From the NCBI RefSeq assembly GCF_000146675.1, contig NZ_GL397214.1, positions 1,071,871 to 1,135,870 of the forward strand: a DNA stretch of 64,000 nucleotides, read 5' to 3'. This stretch comes from Hoylesella marshii DSM 16973 = JCM 13450. Lineage in GTDB: Bacteria > Bacteroidota > Bacteroidia > Bacteroidales > Bacteroidaceae. A program made the translations under genes and the position numbers. Below the pieces are notes generated by a model. The model was not told the origin of the DNA. It saw nothing but the letters and a program-made list of their open reading frames with translations, and did not search any database. Shown in pieces: positions 38,131-60,092 of the stretch (position 1 is the first letter of the stretch; every line of letters starts with the position of its first letter).

Positions 38131-38252
38131 GTGTCGTCGGATTCTTTCCGAGTCCAGGATAGAAAAGTCGGCAGCTGTGCTGTAGTCTTACAAACAAAAG
38201 TCTACGCATAGCTGCCGATTTTGTTTGTCGAGAACGAAATCGCCTCCGCCAA

Positions 38253-38515
38253 CAAGCCGCTTGCAGGCTCGTTGCAAAAGTGAAAAGCGCCAACAAGCCG
38301 CTTGCAGGCTCGCTGCAAAAGTGAAAAGCACGAACAAGCCACTTGCAGGCTCGCTGCAAAAGTGAAAAGCGCCAACAAGCCGCTTGCAGGCTCGCTGCAA
38401 AAGTGAAAAGCGTCAACAAGCCGCTTGCAGGCTCGCTGCAAAAGTGAAAAGCGCCAACAAGCCGCTTGCAGGCTCGCTGCAAAAGTGAAAAGTGCCAACA
38501 AGCCGCTTGCAGGGA
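38253..38515. repeat. 41-bp tandem array A2 (six full units plus partial)
   Basis: caagcc starts at 38253, 38294, 38335, 38376, 38417, 38458 and 38499, an exact 41-bp period with few substitutions. The unit contains CAAGC-C-GCTTG and tgca-ggctcgc-tgca dyads, then aaaagtgaaaagcgccaa. It is the same family as A1 at 1.8-2.0 kb and lies between rny and the ATP-grasp-like gene, both on the plus strand. Confidence 0.96.
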
Positions 38516-41467: not shown

Positions 41468-44350
41468 TTATCGGTAGATATCTGACCGGTGCAGTTCCAC
41501 GATACGTCCGTATTGCGCCAAGCGTTTCAAATCGAGTTTCTTCTTGTTGCCTACAACGATGATGGCGCGGGGTTCTTTGCCGGCTGTGTTCGTCTGATAA
41601 TTGGTCACGTCGTTGGCCGAAAGCGAAGGGAGAATCGTCAGCCATCGCCGGGACGGATCTTCTGTGTAACCGTTTCTGTGCAAGAAGGCGATGCGATTGC
41701 CGATACTGCGAAACGAGGGGAAGTTGTTGGAAATTCTGTTCAGTATGCCTTGTCGGGCAATATCAACCCCCGTTTGTCGCAGCGGCATGTGGGTAAGCAG
41801 ACTGTCGAGCACAGAGAGTGCGTTCATGGTCTTGTCGGCCTGTGTGCCTAAGCGGGTGGTGAAGGCCGTCGGTGCATCGGCATGGCGGATGAGCGAAGGA
41901 CACATCAGATTGGCGGAGGCATAGTAGGCCAGCGAGCGAAACTCGCGTATCTCTTGGAAAATAACCGACGACATGCCGTTACCTAAATAGTCTGCCCACA
42001 GCGTTTGTCTAACGCGGTCTTCCACCGTGGGGGCGGATGGCAACTGGGCATACGTGCCGATGATGGTCTGCCGCGCCGAGGGATTGTTGAACAGATAGAC
42101 CGTAGGCTCACAGACGGGCATGAGGGGGACGAATGTGGACTGGGCGGGACGCGCCATGCTGTCGATAGAGAACTGTTGCTTCAGGGCTTGCGCCACTTCG
42201 TCGGGCGGAAGTTGTCCGCTATAGACGATGGAGCATGCGTAGCGTTGCGCGTCGGCAAAATGTGCCAAGAGGTCTTCGGCACGCAGGGCACTCAGGGTCT
42301 TTGCCGAGGGCTGCGTGAGGTAAGCAGAGCGGTCGCCGTTGGCCACGCGTTCGAAGACGGCATTGGCAATGGTCGTGTTGTCTTTGAAGAACGTGCGGTC
42401 GCTTAATTTCCTTTCGGTTACGACATCGCGCATTTTCCGTGCATCAACCTCGGCATGATACATGAAATGATTGAGCAAACGGAGCGTGGGTGCGAGGTTA
42501 CGGTCGTATCCGCTGATGCCGAGGATGAAGCTCGCGTTATCAACGCTTATCGCCATGTGTGAGCCCAACTGTTGGAATGCTTTGCCCAACGCGAGTTTCG
42601 AGAGTGAGTCGGTGCCGACAGTGGAGAGGTATTCTTTTGTTGCTTCGAGCAATGGGTCGGCAATGGTGCCTTGATGGAAGATGAATTGCAGTTTGAAGAG
42701 GTCGTTTACGGGATTCTTCACTGCGTAGAGATTTACCTGCGGCGAGAGTGCGATGGTGGTGGCATCGCGGTCGAAGTCGATGAGGCGTACAGGTTTGTCG
42801 TCGGTTGGCATCTTCGAGAGTTGTTCGGCGTAGGCCGACTGTGCGCCGATGTTTTTCGGCGTGACGGGTTGGTAGCCCGGCTGCGCCATCTTGTCCTTTT
42901 TTCCGCTGCCGTATTTCTTAACGACACGTATGGATTGGTCGTTGAAGTAGCGGGCAGCCACGCGCATGATGTCGGCCTTCGTGAGGTTGGCCACATTGCG
43001 ACCGGTGCTTATATAGTCGTCCCACGAGCGGTCTTGAGTAAAGGCGTCAATCATAGCACTTGCACGGCTGTCGATTTGCTCCATCATCTGTTGTTTTTCT
43101 CTGATGTAGTCGCGTTTCAGACTTTGCAGCATCTCGTCGCTGAACGCACCGCTTTTCAGTCGGTCTACCTGTTGACGACACAGTGTTTCAACCTTGTGTT
43201 TGGAACCGAAAGGGATGTTGGGCACGGCACCGAAGAACAGCAGTCCCGTGTGTCGGAGTGCCATACGTTCGCAGAAGGCATAGAGCATCTTGTGGCTGTG
43301 CACCAGCGAGTCGAGCAAACCGGTGTTGTTGTCGTTGGAGAGCAGTTGGGTGGCTATGTCTAATGCTGGGGCATCGGGGGCATCGTCGGTCGGGGCACGG
43401 AAGGCTACGGCATCTATCTTGATGAGCGGAATGGGTAGTTTGACACCGAGCGTCTCCTTGCCCGTGAAAGGCGATAGTTGCCAAGGCGCGCGTGCCGGAG
43501 CATTGCCCGGGCGTATTCGTCCGAAAGTTCGTTCGAGGAGCGGCATGAGGGTGGAGGGGTCGATGTCGCCGCAGAGAATAAGCCCCATGTTGCCTGCCAC
43601 GTAGTATTTGTCGAAGAACTCGCGCATTTCGCTGAGCTTCGGATTCTTCAGATTTTCGGTGCTGCCGAGGACGGGATAGGCGTAGGGACTGCCAGCAAAG
43701 AGCTTGCTCATAAACTTTTCCATGGCATTGCCGAGCACATTGTCGTTGACCATGTTTTTTTCCTCGTACACGGTTTCGAGTTCGTTTTGGAATCCGCGGA
43801 ACACGGGATGGATGAGCCGTTCGCTGTTCAGTTCCGCCCATTGTGCGATGTATTGGGGGGCGAACTCGTTGTGGTAGACGGTCTCGTCGTAGGAAGTGTA
43901 GGCGTTGAGTTTTGAGCCGCCATAGCGGGTAATCAGCGAGTTGAACTCGTTGGGGATGCTGTAGTCGGCAGCTTTCCGGCTCAACCGGTTGATATCTTGC
44001 TGCAAGGCGCGGCGGGCGGCCTTGTCGGCTGTAAGGGCGAGTTGGTCGTATCGGGCGGAGATGGAATCCAGCCACGGTTTCTCTGCTTGGTAGTTGGTGG
44101 TGCCGATTTGGTCGGTTCCCTTAAACATGATGTGCTCAAAGTAGTGGGCAATGCCGGTGTTGGGGCAGTCGTTGGCACCTGCTTTCACTACCACTGCGCC
44201 CATCACTTTGGGTTGGCTGTGGTCTTCGTTGAGCCATACGGTCATGCCGTTGGAGAGTTTGTGTTCCACCACCCGAAGCGGGTCGGTCTGCTGTGCACAC
44301 ACCGGATAGATGCTGCACCACGTGATGAGAAATGCGAGGATATGTTTCAT
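41468..44350 (-). CDS. M16 family zinc metallopeptidase
   Basis: This is a secreted two-repeat peptidase of the insulinase/pitrilysin family, 960 residues. A signal peptide (cleavage near PVCA-QQ) precedes the active M16 domain with the inverted zinc motif HYFEH (69-73) and the downstream ELETVYEEKNMV segment with the third ligand. Inactive middle and C-terminal M16 domains follow (about 250-460 and 530-900). It is probably periplasmic and degrades peptides. A TACCTTTG promoter element lies 30 bp upstream, and a 42-bp palindromic array begins about 50 bp further upstream, which could affect its expression. Confidence 0.92.
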   Translation of the reverse strand: MKHILAFLITWCSIYPVCAQQTDPLRVVEHKLSNGMTVWLNEDHSQPKVMGAVVVKAGANDCPNTGIAHYFEHIMFKGTDQIGTTNYQAEKPWLDSISARYDQLALTADKAARRALQQDINRLSRKAADYSIPNEFNSLITRYGGSKLNAYTSYDETVYHNEFAPQYIAQWAELNSERLIHPVFRGFQNELETVYEEKNMVNDNVLGNAMEKFMSKLFAGSPYAYPVLGSTENLKNPKLSEMREFFDKYYVAGNMGLILCGDIDPSTLMPLLERTFGRIRPGNAPARAPWQLSPFTGKETLGVKLPIPLIKIDAVAFRAPTDDAPDAPALDIATQLLSNDNNTGLLDSLVHSHKMLYAFCERMALRHTGLLFFGAVPNIPFGSKHKVETLCRQQVDRLKSGAFSDEMLQSLKRDYIREKQQMMEQIDSRASAMIDAFTQDRSWDDYISTGRNVANLTKADIMRVAARYFNDQSIRVVKKYGSGKKDKMAQPGYQPVTPKNIGAQSAYAEQLSKMPTDDKPVRLIDFDRDATTIALSPQVNLYAVKNPVNDLFKLQFIFHQGTIADPLLEATKEYLSTVGTDSLSKLALGKAFQQLGSHMAISVDNASFILGISGYDRNLAPTLRLLNHFMYHAEVDARKMRDVVTERKLSDRTFFKDNTTIANAVFERVANGDRSAYLTQPSAKTLSALRAEDLLAHFADAQRYACSIVYSGQLPPDEVAQALKQQFSIDSMARPAQSTFVPLMPVCEPTVYLFNNPSARQTIIGTYAQLPSAPTVEDRVRQTLWADYLGNGMSSVIFQEIREFRSLAYYASANLMCPSLIRHADAPTAFTTRLGTQADKTMNALSVLDSLLTHMPLRQTGVDIARQGILNRISNNFPSFRSIGNRIAFLHRNGYTEDPSRRWLTILPSLSANDVTNYQTNTAGKEPRAIIVVGNKKKLDLKRLAQYGRIVELHRSDIYR

Positions 44351-44380
44351 GTTGTGTTTGTTTTTTTATGATGGACGATG

Positions 44381-44388
44381 CAAAGGTA
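44381..44388 (-). promoter_or_regulatory. Promoter -7 element of the M16 peptidase gene
   Basis: The minus strand reads TACCTTTG followed by CATCG, 30 bp before the ATG. Confidence 0.6.
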
Positions 44389-44441
44389 CGCGGAAGATGG
44401 AGAATGGCCAAGACTTTTCTCTCGCTTTTTATCGGGATGTA

Positions 44442-44780
44442 CCGGCGCAGGGTGCGCCGGGGCTGCATGAGTGCCGAACCATGTCGGCGCAGGGTGCGCC
44501 GGGGCTGCGCGAGTGCCAAACCATGCCGGCGCAGGGTGCGCCGAGACCGCACGAGTGCCAAGTGTTAAGATTTAGACTGCGCCGTTAACAAATGAGTGCC
44601 AAACAGTTAAAATATCAACTACGCCGTTAACGGATGAGTGCCGAGTGTTAAGATTTAGACTGCGCCGTTAACAAATGAGTGTCGTGCGGTCTCGGCAGAG
44701 GCTCTGCCGAGGCTCCCGGAGTGCCAAACCATGCCGGCAGAGGCTCTGCCGGGGCTTTCGGAGTGTCGCACAGTGCAAAC
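44442..44780. repeat. 42-bp tandem array C with perfect palindromes
   Basis: gagtgcc (twice gagtgtc) recurs at 44469, 44511, 44553, 44594, 44636, 44677, 44719 and 44761, a period of 42 or 41 bp. Between these markers lie three kinds of insert: ccggcgcagggtgcgccgg palindromes (three), gttaa...ttaac inserts (three) and ccggcagaggctctgccgg-type palindromes (two). The array fills the gap between the M16 gene and cdd, both on the minus strand. It contains no credible gene. Confidence 0.93.
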
Positions 44781-44796
44781 CGGAGTTCGGGTCGGG

Positions 44797-45282
44797 TCAT
44801 GGGTGCATACACTCGTCTACAAAGGAGAGGGGTAAGAGGTCTTTCATGCTGTTGAGTGCATAGATGGCATTCGTGCCATAAAGCAGAATGCGGACGGGCT
44901 GGCGGTAACGGTCTTCTATTTCCAATACTACCTGCCGGCATGCACCGCAAGGACTGATGGGGTTTGCCAACAGATGTCCCTCCGTATTTCGAGCGGCCAC
45001 GGCCAACGTGCGTATGGGCTGGTCGGGGAATTGCGATTGGGCGGCAAATATGGCCGAGCGTTCCGCGCAGAGACCGGAGGGGTATGCGGCATTCTCCTGA
45101 TTGGCGCCGATAACCGTCCGTCCGTCGTTGAGCAAGAGGGCTGCACCCACACGGAAGTGCGAATATTTGGCATACGCATTCTGTGTGGCATCGATGGCTG
45201 CTTTGAGAAGTTGTTGCTCAACTTGGGAAAGTTCTTCCATCGTATAGACTTCAATGTCGATGGGCAGATTGATGTGTTTCAT
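44797..45282 (-). CDS. cdd: Cytidine deaminase
   Basis: Cytidine deaminase is a pyrimidine salvage enzyme converting cytidine and deoxycytidine to uridine forms. The 161-residue protein is the short homotetrameric type, with zinc ligands in LCAERSAIF and PCGACRQ and the proton-shuttling Glu in CAE. The N-terminal part has a YSHFRVGAALL segment. It starts 11 bp after the stop of the beta-helix lipoprotein gene upstream, so they may be co-transcribed. Confidence 0.95.
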   Translation of the reverse strand: MKHINLPIDIEVYTMEELSQVEQQLLKAAIDATQNAYAKYSHFRVGAALLLNDGRTVIGANQENAAYPSGLCAERSAIFAAQSQFPDQPIRTLAVAARNTEGHLLANPISPCGACRQVVLEIEDRYRQPVRILLYGTNAIYALNSMKDLLPLSFVDECMHP

Positions 45283-45293
45283 TTGTCTTCTTG

Positions 45294-46739
45294 TTAGTCT
45301 TTTTTGTATTCATAGCATCCTATGTCGGGTTTCCCATCGCGGGGCTGTCCGTCCTTGTCGGCGGGCAACGAATGGGTGGCATCGGCTTTGTCTATGGCCA
45401 ATGATTTCTTGCTGAGGCGGAAGTCGTAGCGCAACAAGCGGGTATCGACTTCTTTGAAATTCTTCCATCCGGCTGAAACGGTATCGCTCACGTTTTCCCA
45501 AATAATATGGCTGTAATGCGTGGCATCGTCTTTCACTTCGGGTGTTCGCAGCAGACAATTCTCGAACCGATAGTTGAACGGCGTTCCCTCCTTGCGGTCG
45601 TCGCCTTTGATAACGTCGTCGGCATAGCCCGTAACAAGGGTGTTGATGCAACGAAAATCCTGCAAAGGGAAAATCTTATCGCCCATACGGTTGCCGATGA
45701 AGAGCGCACTGCCGCGGTTGGAATCGAAGGGATAAAGCTGGGCGATGGTGTTGTGCAGGAGCAATGCCGAACCGCCGTAAATGGCCATGCAGGCCGACAG
45801 GGCGTTGGTGATTTGGCAGTTTTTCACTTCAATGTGGGAGTTGTAAGACAGCACCCCCGTTCCTTTACTGTTGTGCACCGTGGTTGAAAATAGCGTGAGC
45901 TTCAGCCGCGAGGCGTCGGAAGAATCGCATACAATGGCATCGTTCGCACCGTGAATATCCGTATAGGAAATGCGGTTCTCGTAAGAGGTTTTATGAAAAC
46001 GCAAGCCTTTCCATTGTCCACTGATGCGGTCGTAAGGCAGATAGGGGAATATTTTGTCGAGGCGATCGCCGCGTAAGACGATGCTGTCAGTTGGCGTTCC
46101 TTCACACACAAGTTTGCCGTGTACATCAATGCCTGCCTTATCGTGGAAATAAAGCGTTGTGCCCGGGGAGATGGTCAATGTGGCTCCTTCACCCACGGTT
46201 ATGCCTCCGTATATGATGATGGGCGCGGGGCCTGACAAGGTTGTGTCGTGGGTAAGGGTCGTATGAGTCAGTTTTGTGGCATCCCAAGCCCAAGCCTGCA
46301 GGCATACTTTCTGTTCCACGCCGTTTTCCAGCGTAAAGAGCAAATCATCTTCCACTGCTTTTGGATTCACTTGGTGGCTTAATGGCGAAGTCAATGCTAC
46401 AAACACGTTGATGCTGTCTTTGTTTCTTATTTCCACATCGGAAGTGCGGTAACCTTCCGTCTTACCTAAATTCGCACCGTCTACATTCACGAGAAAGCCC
46501 GTTTGATTGCCTTGCCTCAAACGGACATTTGTGCATCGCAGACCAGCTCCGGAACGGTTGTAAACCCGAAAGACGGTGGTGGCGGTGGGAACATTTGAGA
46601 AGACGGTATCAAGTCGTACCGTGTCTGTGGAGAAAGAAAGGATATGCGAGGGCGATGTTGAAAAAGAATCATCGTCGCTGCAGGAAGCCCATAAAAAGAG
46701 GAAAGCGGGCAGTACAAAGGGTATTATTCTACATCTCAT
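45294..46739 (-). CDS. Right-handed beta-helix lipoprotein
   Basis: This is a 481-residue surface lipoprotein. The signal peptide MRCRIIPFVLPAFLFLWASC ends in a lipobox. An N-terminal Ig-like region (to about 145) is followed by parallel beta-helix coils from about 150 (IIIYGGITVGEGATLTISPGT, then ISYTDIHGANDAI, HIEVKNCQITNA). The C-terminus has a SLAIDKADATHSLPADKDGQPRDG segment and ends PDIGCYEYKK, a known ending of choice-of-anchor/pectate-lyase-like Bacteroidetes proteins. The function is unknown, perhaps carbohydrate-binding. Its start overlaps the tilS stop by 11 bp. Confidence 0.8.
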   Translation of the reverse strand: MRCRIIPFVLPAFLFLWASCSDDDSFSTSPSHILSFSTDTVRLDTVFSNVPTATTVFRVYNRSGAGLRCTNVRLRQGNQTGFLVNVDGANLGKTEGYRTSDVEIRNKDSINVFVALTSPLSHQVNPKAVEDDLLFTLENGVEQKVCLQAWAWDATKLTHTTLTHDTTLSGPAPIIIYGGITVGEGATLTISPGTTLYFHDKAGIDVHGKLVCEGTPTDSIVLRGDRLDKIFPYLPYDRISGQWKGLRFHKTSYENRISYTDIHGANDAIVCDSSDASRLKLTLFSTTVHNSKGTGVLSYNSHIEVKNCQITNALSACMAIYGGSALLLHNTIAQLYPFDSNRGSALFIGNRMGDKIFPLQDFRCINTLVTGYADDVIKGDDRKEGTPFNYRFENCLLRTPEVKDDATHYSHIIWENVSDTVSAGWKNFKEVDTRLLRYDFRLSKKSLAIDKADATHSLPADKDGQPRDGKPDIGCYEYKKD

Positions 46740-49939: not shown

Positions 49940-50290
49940 GATAAAGCATCTTGTCCAAAAGCCCCCAAAATTCTTATCCCAAAGTAGCATAAATGTTTGT
50001 TTTGATGCTTGCCTCGGCTGGGCATTTGACTTTCCTTTCGGTTTGGCGTTTGCTCATGTTGAGCATTTAACTTTCCTTTCGGTTTGGCGTTTGCACGCGT
50101 GTGGGATTTCCATGAGCCCCGGAGGGGCGGCGGATTTCAGGCAGGGGTGGAGCAACGAGCAGAACCCCTGATAAGCGACCCATCAAGGAAAGAACTCCGG
50201 AGGGTCGACGGAGCATCGGACAACCTCCCCTCTGTCGCCCCGTCTGAACTTACTGCTCAAGCATCCTTATCACGAACTCACACGCAACGT
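49940..50290. repeat. Short 41-bp array D1 with GC-rich module
   Basis: The motif tgggcatttgactttcc (50019) recurs as tgagcatttaactttcc at 50060, a 41-bp step. Spacer sequence ctttcggtttggcgtttgc follows each. The flank aaagcccccaaaa (near 49958) matches one at 59767. After the array comes the gaggggcgg...caggcagggg...cccctgataagc module and the end motif ttatcacgaactcac at 50267, shared with 3.2-3.45 kb. It sits between divergent genes. Confidence 0.8.
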
Positions 50291-55236: not shown

Positions 55237-55359
55237 TTATGTTATAAGGGAAAAGCAGGTTAAGGTGGAATGTCCGATCGGAGAATGTTTTAAAATATTA
55301 CTGTCCGGTAAACCTTTTCCGTATAAGAGTTAGGGAATGAAATTCAAACGAGGTTTTTT

Positions 55360-55390
55360 CTGTCATCCGCGCTGGCGGATGACAGTTTTT
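55360..55390 (+). terminator. Orphan terminator-like hairpin
   Basis: A perfect 11-bp stem (ctgtcatccgc, loop gctg, gcggatgacag) is followed by ttttt. No gene lies upstream between the tRNA terminator and this point, so its transcript is unknown. The rest of the 55237-55639 gap holds the pfkA terminator and no gene. Confidence 0.75.
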
Positions 55391-55474
55391 ACTCATTGCC
55401 AACCTGCTCTGTACTGTTATCTATAGAATGATAAAAAAAAGACACGTATCTTTCTCACAGGTGCTAACCATGCT

Positions 55475-55516
55475 AAATAAAAGAATGCGGGATTACCTAT
55501 ATAAAGGCAATCCCGC
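55475..55516 (-). terminator. Terminator of pfkA
   Basis: On the minus strand gcgggatt...aatcccgc (8 bp plus 3 more pairs, one mismatch) is followed by attcttttattt, about 125 bp past the pfkA stop. Confidence 0.7.
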
Positions 55517-55639
55517 AAGGGAATCTATGTTAGAGATGTTTTGCGGACAAGCAATAATTTTAAAACAATGATGAAGGGGCGGAGGAGAGGTCATCTTTAT
55601 AAAAAGCGACAGATGGGCCGCCTGATGATTGATGGGGGA

Positions 55640-59618: not shown

Positions 59619-59795
59619 CGGTATATAAACGGCCGTCCATCGCGTTTATTGTCTGTTCTCTTCCTCTCTTTGGCAGCCTTGAATCCATGAGAAACACTGC
59701 GGGGCACCGTCTGCCCGTGGCCGATTAGTAAGGGAACATTAGTTCGAGATAAAGACCTCTTGCCAAAGCCCCCGAATCTGTTCTGATACTTGCCC

Positions 59796-60092
59796 CAGCC
59801 GGGCATTTAACTTTCCTTTTGGTTTGGCATTTGCTCATGTTGAGCATTTAACTTTCCTTTCGGTTTGGCGTTTGCTCATGTTGAGCATTTAACTTTCCTT
59901 TCGATTTGACGTTTGCTCATGTTGAGCATTTAACTTTCCTTACGGTTTGACGTTTGCTCATGTTGAGCATTTAACTTTCCTTACGGTTTGGCGTTTGCTC
60001 ATGTTGAGCATTTAACTTTCCTTTCGGTTTAGCGTTTGCTCATGTTGAGCATTTAACTTTCCTTTCGGTTTAGCGTTTGCACCAGCCGGGCA
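59796..60092. repeat. 41-bp tandem array D2 (about seven units)
   Basis: tgagcatttaactttcc begins at 59841, 59882, 59923, 59964, 60005 and 60046, exactly 41 bp apart; a variant, cgggcatttaactttcc, precedes it at 59801. Each unit has tgctca-tgt-tgagca, a 6-bp-arm dyad. Both ends of the array carry cagccgggca. It is the long relative of D1 at 50.02 kb and sits between divergent genes. 59619-59795 and 60093-60250 show no gene; the end motif ttatctcgaattcgcg is at 60151. Confidence 0.95.

Follow-up and report, generated by a model that had tools for sequence, protein, structure and literature searches.

Palindromic tandem array beside an M16 peptidase gene in Hoylesella marshii and its apparent place in a class of 40-42 bp arrays

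The array between the cdd and M16 peptidase genes

The window analysed here is a 64,000-nucleotide stretch of the genome of Hoylesella marshii DSM 16973 (contig NZ_GL397214.1, positions 1,071,871 to 1,135,870). It contains a tandem array of short palindromic units located between two minus-strand genes, beginning approx. 17-20 bp past the stop codon of the cytidine deaminase gene (cdd) and ending ahead of the promoter of an M16 peptidase gene. The promoter-like sequence, which we take to be a Bacteroidota-type promoter of the M16 gene, reads from 44411 to 44381 on the minus strand. The closest matches of the M16 protein reach at most 52% and are mostly Prevotella and Prevotellaceae records. 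At 80 M16 loci of other genomes (flanks of up to 4 kb, often less), cdd was never found in the flank, and no orthologous empty site was recovered.

41468-44350, minus strand: M16 peptidase gene (PF05193, PF00675), start at 44350
44381-44411, minus strand: promoter-like TTGG-N19-TACCTTTG preceding the M16 gene, with the array upstream of it
44442-44780, no strand assigned: tandem array of 41/42-bp units that combine a GAGTG[CT]C spacer with exchangeable inserts
44442-44460, no strand assigned: 19-nt palindrome of type 1 (CGGCGCA..TGCGCCG), CCGGCGCAGGGTGCGCCGG
44484-44502, no strand assigned: type 1 palindrome with one end base changed, outer pair T.G
44526-44544, no strand assigned: type 1 palindrome with one end base changed, outer pair C.A
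44553-44676, no strand assigned: three units with a GTTAA..TTAAC insert (41, 42 and 41 bp)
44692-44710, no strand assigned: palindrome of type 1b (CGGCAGA..TCTGCCG), outer pair T-A
44734-44752, no strand assigned: palindrome of type 1b, CCGGCAGAGGCTCTGCCGG, outer pair C-G
44797-45282, minus strand: cytidine deaminase gene, cdd (PF00383), stop at 44797

A sequence-only reading had described this locus as a 42-bp array of units opening with GAGTGCC, with two 19-nt palindrome types that differ at positions 6, 7, 13 and 14 in paired fashion, a third insert type with GTTAA..TTAAC ends, and a position just upstream of the M16 promoter. This description holds. Eight GAGTG[CT]C sites, starting at 44469, 44511, 44553, 44594, 44636, 44677, 44719 and 44761, follow one another in steps of 42, 42, 41, 42, 41, 42 and 42 bp, and the units are arranged head-to-tail. 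The paired differences between types 1 and 1b are as claimed; the two types also differ at position 11, where G.G becomes G-C and the stem is extended. The third insert type occupies the units at 44553-44676, and the promoter-like sequence lies approx. 30 bp from the array. The inserts are ordered as three of type 1, three of the GTTAA..TTAAC type, two of type 1b and a degenerate unit.

A common period in arrays of different sequence

Tandem repeats were searched with TRF in 864 kb of the same genome, comprising the window and 40 stretches of 20 kb, some of them picked for known arrays. The search yielded 70 non-coding arrays with units of 15-100 bp, 42 of which have a period of 40-42 bp: 40 bp in one array, 41 bp in 32, and 42 bp in nine. 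Another 18 have periods of 22 (16 arrays), 23 (one) or 24 bp (one), and the remainder have periods of 31 (two), 61 (one), 66 (four), 84 (two) and 97 bp (one); none of the 70 falls at 32-39 or 43-60 bp. The GAGTG core is missing in 31 of the 42 arrays of period 40-42 bp, so the picking of stretches for this core cannot explain the period; the other 11 arrays fall into four clusters. By sequence, a strict cut divides the 42 arrays into 22 clusters; merging the GAGTG-core clusters leaves 19, and the loosest cut with the same merge leaves 13. Twelve between-cluster pairs score 12-14, against a shuffled maximum of 12, and some clusters may therefore be distant relatives. The period is thus common to the class, and the sequence mostly is not. 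Several families are present at more than one locus, and the window itself holds further arrays of the same period class:

1830-2045, no strand assigned: 41-bp array with a CAAGCCACTTG dyad
38247-38513, no strand assigned: 41-bp array resembling that at 1830-2045
49998-50094, no strand assigned: short copy, approx. two units, of the array at 59803
59803-60080, no strand assigned: 41-bp array with a TGCTCAtgtTGAGCA dyad, flanked on either side by inverted repeats of TTCGAGATAAAGA at 59743 and approx. 60160

The possibility that the 41-bp unit is a doubled 20/21-bp unit was rejected, as half-period self-similarity was not raised among the 22 cluster representatives. Other arrangements were seen in passing. 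A 2.7-kb intergenic island (L079:17105-19834) holds 41-, 42- and 61-bp arrays, and a near-perfect 28-bp palindrome, GAGGGTGTGTCAATTTTGACACACCCTC, flanks two 41-bp arrays on both sides (L226:18037 and 18428). Arrays also occur as inverted pairs at some loci other than the window array. In particular, L017:1002-1457, L015:603-1150, L013 and L016 each carry two arrays of opposite orientation whose inserts differ; L017 and L015 appear by eye to have flanking sequence in common, and a terminator-like hairpin follows L017.

The GAGTG family is abundant in this genome far beyond chance. The pattern GAGTGYC-N(30-40)-GAGTGYC has 63 matches in the whole 2.56-Mb genome and its reversed form none. A partner of the window array, 355 kb away (L009/L084), has 314 bp in common with it at 88%, with the insert types in the same succession; between the window array and L009, similarity ends at or near the array ends. 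No match to the 401-bp array region was found in 39 other genomes. A stricter three-site pattern matched four of 200 genus genomes, this one included; the three relatives show a 21-bp array, an array of approx. 40-43 bp with another sequence, and a match that, by eye, is probably coding. The reversed control also matched several relatives, and the three-site pattern is therefore unspecific outside this genome. In one relative (G125:C37:22316-22553), a long 21-bp array, GAGTGCCGAACTTGCAGAAAA, shares the GAGTGYC start of the window units.

On this sample, a 22-bp regime is common in relatives and a 41-bp regime is particular to this lineage. Among 27 non-coding arrays in 669 kb sampled from genus relatives, 14 have periods of 21-22 bp, one has 42 bp and none has 41 bp. 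In 777 kb around the 80 M16 loci, which are mostly but not wholly Prevotella by record title, 31 non-coding arrays were found, 18 of 21-22 bp and none of 40-42 bp; the only 42-bp array in this sample lies inside an ORF. Other families of the order (253 kb) gave a single non-coding array. These counts in relatives rest on an ORF filter simpler than that used for the genome itself. No literature on 41-bp palindromic arrays in Prevotella was found by title or start of abstract, a search whose scope took in few subscription papers. The window array looks like an ordinary member of this unusual array class and not like proof of a special regulatory fold.

Dyads, covariation and the level at which they might act

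Dyads are generally enriched in the consensus units of the class, and not every family has one. With one representative per cluster, the median dyad p-value of the 22 clusters is 0.18, with three at or below 0.05, and dyads are enriched over dinucleotide shuffles with KS p = 2e-4 for 22 clusters and 8e-4 for 13 clusters. In 10 of the 22 clusters, at least one member reaches a dyad p of 0.1 or less. Many families carry one dyad of 15-26 bp per unit.

Within the GAGTG family, covariation was scored on an eight-pair stem in 24 inserts of 42-bp units from four loci (184 cells), with the degenerate terminal insert of the window (44776-44794) set aside. Pairing is found in 84.2% of the cells, against a shuffled mean of 81.8% (the observed value is reached by 40 of 500 shuffles). 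The cells changed on both sides number 14, against a shuffled mean of 9.5 (17 of 500), and the covariation score is 0.204, against 0.157 in shuffles (8 of 500) and 0.118 in the best slid version. The number of pairs with a change on both sides is not raised (three, shuffled mean 3.0, 379 of 500). Pair 7-13 is AU in seven inserts, CG in five, GC in three and unpaired in eight; pairs 4-16 and 1-19 are unpaired in nine and ten inserts, respectively. Part of the signal is carried by the AG/CT type, whose three inserts all lie within two homologous arrays and hence most likely represent one event. Covariation in this family is thin.

In other families, pairing was tested on distinct inserts collected with genome patterns that fix the outer arms or the linker and leave the inner bases free. 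Two inner pairs of the TTGCA family (14 inserts, 9 loci) gave p = 0.0096 and 0.0008. In the GYCATC family (25 inserts, 11 loci), pairs 8-15 and 9-14 gave p = 0.012 and 0.042, and pairs 7-16, 10-13 and 11-12 gave 0.41, 0.73 and 1.0. One pair was significant in the TTTCGG family (8 inserts; 7-12, p = 0.036; the other two were not) and one in the TAAC family (9 inserts; 9-15, p = 0.025; the other five were not). The patterns were drawn from families whose dyads had been noticed beforehand, two are symmetric and so pool arrays of either orientation, and the p-values ignore relatedness; of the 16 inner pairs in four families, only that with p = 0.0008 survives Bonferroni correction. Some inner stem pairs thus covary in four other families and others do not, and the exchange of stem sequence often, not always, keeps pairing.

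The sequence-only reading had regarded covariation within the array as strong evidence that a folded form, or a dyad-binding protein, is selected. Collecting the units bore this out in part, with the score and the both-side cells above shuffles; pairs 1-19, 4-16 and 7-13, however, often break. Unpaired stem changes in a broad sample, named by that reading as contrary evidence, do occur (29 of 184 cells in 24 inserts from four loci). The claim of selection draws on the class-wide dyads and the covariation in four families, but is weakened by the frequent broken stems and the few significant pairs. Template switching yields several compensatory stem changes in one step (PMC8794818). Since paired changes can arise in this way too, the covariation seen here gives no strong support to a selected fold or a dyad-binding protein.

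Two readings place a function in the units themselves. The array might be transcribed from cdd, its string of hairpins stabilising or terminating the transcript; the array does start approx. 17-20 bp past the cdd stop and end before the M16 promoter, and in some families T-runs follow the palindrome. At two co-directional places (L228, L229), however, the T-runs lie on the antisense strand. Pairing at the RNA level would predict more G.U than A.C on the transcribed strand. Wobble mismatches were counted in 24 arrays, four from the 22-bp class, after arrays scoring below 6 for dyads had been dropped together with those at 44442/44553 in the window, the L084 ones, and any unit of less than 60% identity. 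In the 10 co-directional arrays, a small sample with low power, distinct sense G.U (9) hardly differs from sense A.C (8), which argues weakly against an RNA-level role. Rfam gave no match over 44200-45000 at E up to 1. An RNA fold is thus unsupported by wobble asymmetry or Rfam; the two, at low power, lean to the DNA level, and we regard the transcript reading as very unlikely.

At the DNA level, each unit could serve a dimeric or structure-specific protein as a dyad operator or a structural site; the protein might be a regulator, a nucleoid protein or one with a gyrase-type role of the kind known from BIMEs. The enrichment of dyads in the class, covariation free of G.U bias, as expected from a DNA-level dyad, and the position immediately upstream of a promoter agree with this reading. 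A spacing of 41 bp is close to four helical turns, which would also suit it, yet the 22 bp of relatives and the 41 bp seen here imply different helical repeats. Moreover, one sequence-specific protein cannot serve all 13 to 19 sequence groups, stems are broken in many units, and array regions are not significantly placed with respect to promoters (19 co-directional, 8 convergent and 3 divergent, against 172, 48 and 57 for other regions). The idea that arrays favour 3' ends or shun divergent promoters was accordingly dropped, since it amounts to no more than a trend (p = 0.12 and 0.23). A protein could bind the dyads; a DNA-level function as a whole we consider unlikely.

Mobile remnants, a candidate origin and known systems

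The history of one family can be followed inside a mobile element, a copy of which lies in the window:

55297-55556, plus strand: IS-derived element; it has a ATTACTGTCCGGTAAA-type end and a transposase remnant, and contains a single 26-bp palindrome but no array; right boundary set by eye

Seven copies of this GYCATC..GATGRCA family (window 55297, L078 and L297-L301) retain one or more ATTGCTGTCCGGTA-type ends, and an additional copy, L296, carries a transposase remnant. The copies hold one (window 55297, L296), two (L297, L299), three (L298), four (L300), five (L078) or six palindromes (L301, one degenerate), and L302 is a six-unit array lacking the element flanks. In another species, the same right end is joined to the 3' end of a transposase (PF01609, DDE_Tnp_1, E = 1.6e-7); this genome has eight partial matches to the 141-residue transposase piece, none longer than 39 residues. 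Eight of 60 genus genomes, this one included, have pieces of the element, for the most part short stretches of its ends. Because copies hold one to six palindromes, the GYCATC array seems to grow by whole 41-bp units inside a decayed DDE_Tnp_1 insertion sequence.

For the window array, such a route would apply by analogy, since no inverted repeat of at least 11 bp was found within 260 bp of it. Inverted repeats surround seven of 46 array regions, against 4.35% of 2000 random places (coding included). A separate dispersed repeat, ACGCGARTTCGGGATAAGA, perhaps a MITE, has 45 intergenic sites in 864 kb (at most 2 mismatches) clustered near arrays. Of these sites, 25 lie no more than 400 bp from an array, whatever its class, a distance that takes in 18.3% of intergenic bases. 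The repeat often occurs as inverted pairs approx. 60-290 bp apart (e.g., L229:10718 and 10902, L097:15992 and 16052, L089:7267 and 7327); at 44001-45300, none was found with up to 5 mismatches.

Spread as REP/BIME-like elements by a hairpin-recognising Y1 (RAYT-type) transposase is, in our judgement, quite improbable. One Y1_Tnp gene (151 aa) was found in the genome, adjoining a 66-bp palindromic array. That array, however, falls in the 22/66-bp class instead of the 41-bp one, the window palindromes have neither a GTAG nor a CGTC tag beside them, and the best-traced family sits in DDE_Tnp_1 remnants. Moreover, a 20-kb sample of genome G003 (99% complete) contains three 22-bp arrays even though the genome shows no Y1_Tnp match. 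As an engine, RAYT is a weak candidate; the one Y1_Tnp gene is flanked by a different repeat class. At the locus itself (L289:1489-1941; G000:C1:1594075-1594419), the only Y1 (IS200/RAYT-like) match of the genome stands beside the 66-bp array and AAAAGCTATGCTTTT repeats, a REPtron-like arrangement.

The explanation we favour, at about an even chance of being correct, is that the arrays are hairpin-stimulated minisatellites, spread in part by IS remnants, whose dyads are kept largely by mutation through template switching. When replication exposes single-stranded DNA, the palindrome would fold back into a hairpin; the hairpin would stimulate tandem duplication in a preferred step, as well as template-switch copying between its arms, by which a dyad may be created and repaired without selection; and IS remnants and recombination might carry arrays to new sites. 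Under this explanation, no dedicated regulatory role falls to the window array beside the M16 promoter, even though supercoiling or transcription nearby could be influenced by it.

Several observations stand against the favoured explanation. That so many sequences have one fixed unit length follows from neither slippage nor template switching alone, and the 22-bp period of relatives does not divide 41. The window array has no terminal inverted repeat, and the six-unit array of L302 lacks element flanks. One-step and two-step paired changes look alike in these data, and pairing kept in several families is also expected under selection. No reading accounts for the 41-bp unit length, which is the part worth following. 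A mechanism of duplication that carries its own ruler and is peculiar to this lineage might amplify palindromic DNA in 41-bp steps whatever its sequence (22-bp steps in sister species), the palindrome being recognised by shape; we hold this to be doubtful. If the fixed 41-bp pitch of otherwise unrelated sequences is mechanistic, it would offer a handle on the birth of bacterial minisatellites, for which a series of one to six units is visible inside copies of one mobile remnant. As template switching can keep dyads without selection, covariation inside tandem arrays calls for caution before a selected fold is claimed.

Porphyromonas gingivalis is another member of the Bacteroidales. Its BrickBuilt element is described as a minisatellite-bearing MITE with a 23-nt repeat without spacers, found 19 times in strain ATCC 33277 (PMC4596501). 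The two systems are alike as intergenic, multi-copy short tandem repeats in a non-autonomous element with inverted-repeat ends, and in the long stem-loops predicted for BrickBuilt. They differ in that BrickBuilt has one 23-nt repeat, whereas the unit here is 40-42 bp in 13 to 19 sequence groups, many units contain a dyad, and many arrays, including that of the window, have no detected terminal repeats. The window array itself is intergenic and multi-copy, with a 41/42-bp instead of a 23-nt unit and no inverted-repeat ends detected. REP/BIME elements (PMC3733652, PMC2817692) similarly consist of short palindromes in many intergenic copies and regularly spaced clusters; in contrast, the window units run head-to-tail at a fixed 41-42 bp pitch, do not alternate in palindrome orientation, and belong to a class diverse in sequence. 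GTAG, CGTC and GACG do not occur in 44442-44780, and one CTAC is present at 44619, in a GTTAA-type unit. Template-switch hairpins were inferred in RNA genes (PMC8794818), whereas switching is itself inferred here, for non-coding tandem arrays; the two have in common multi-base compensatory changes that keep a stem.
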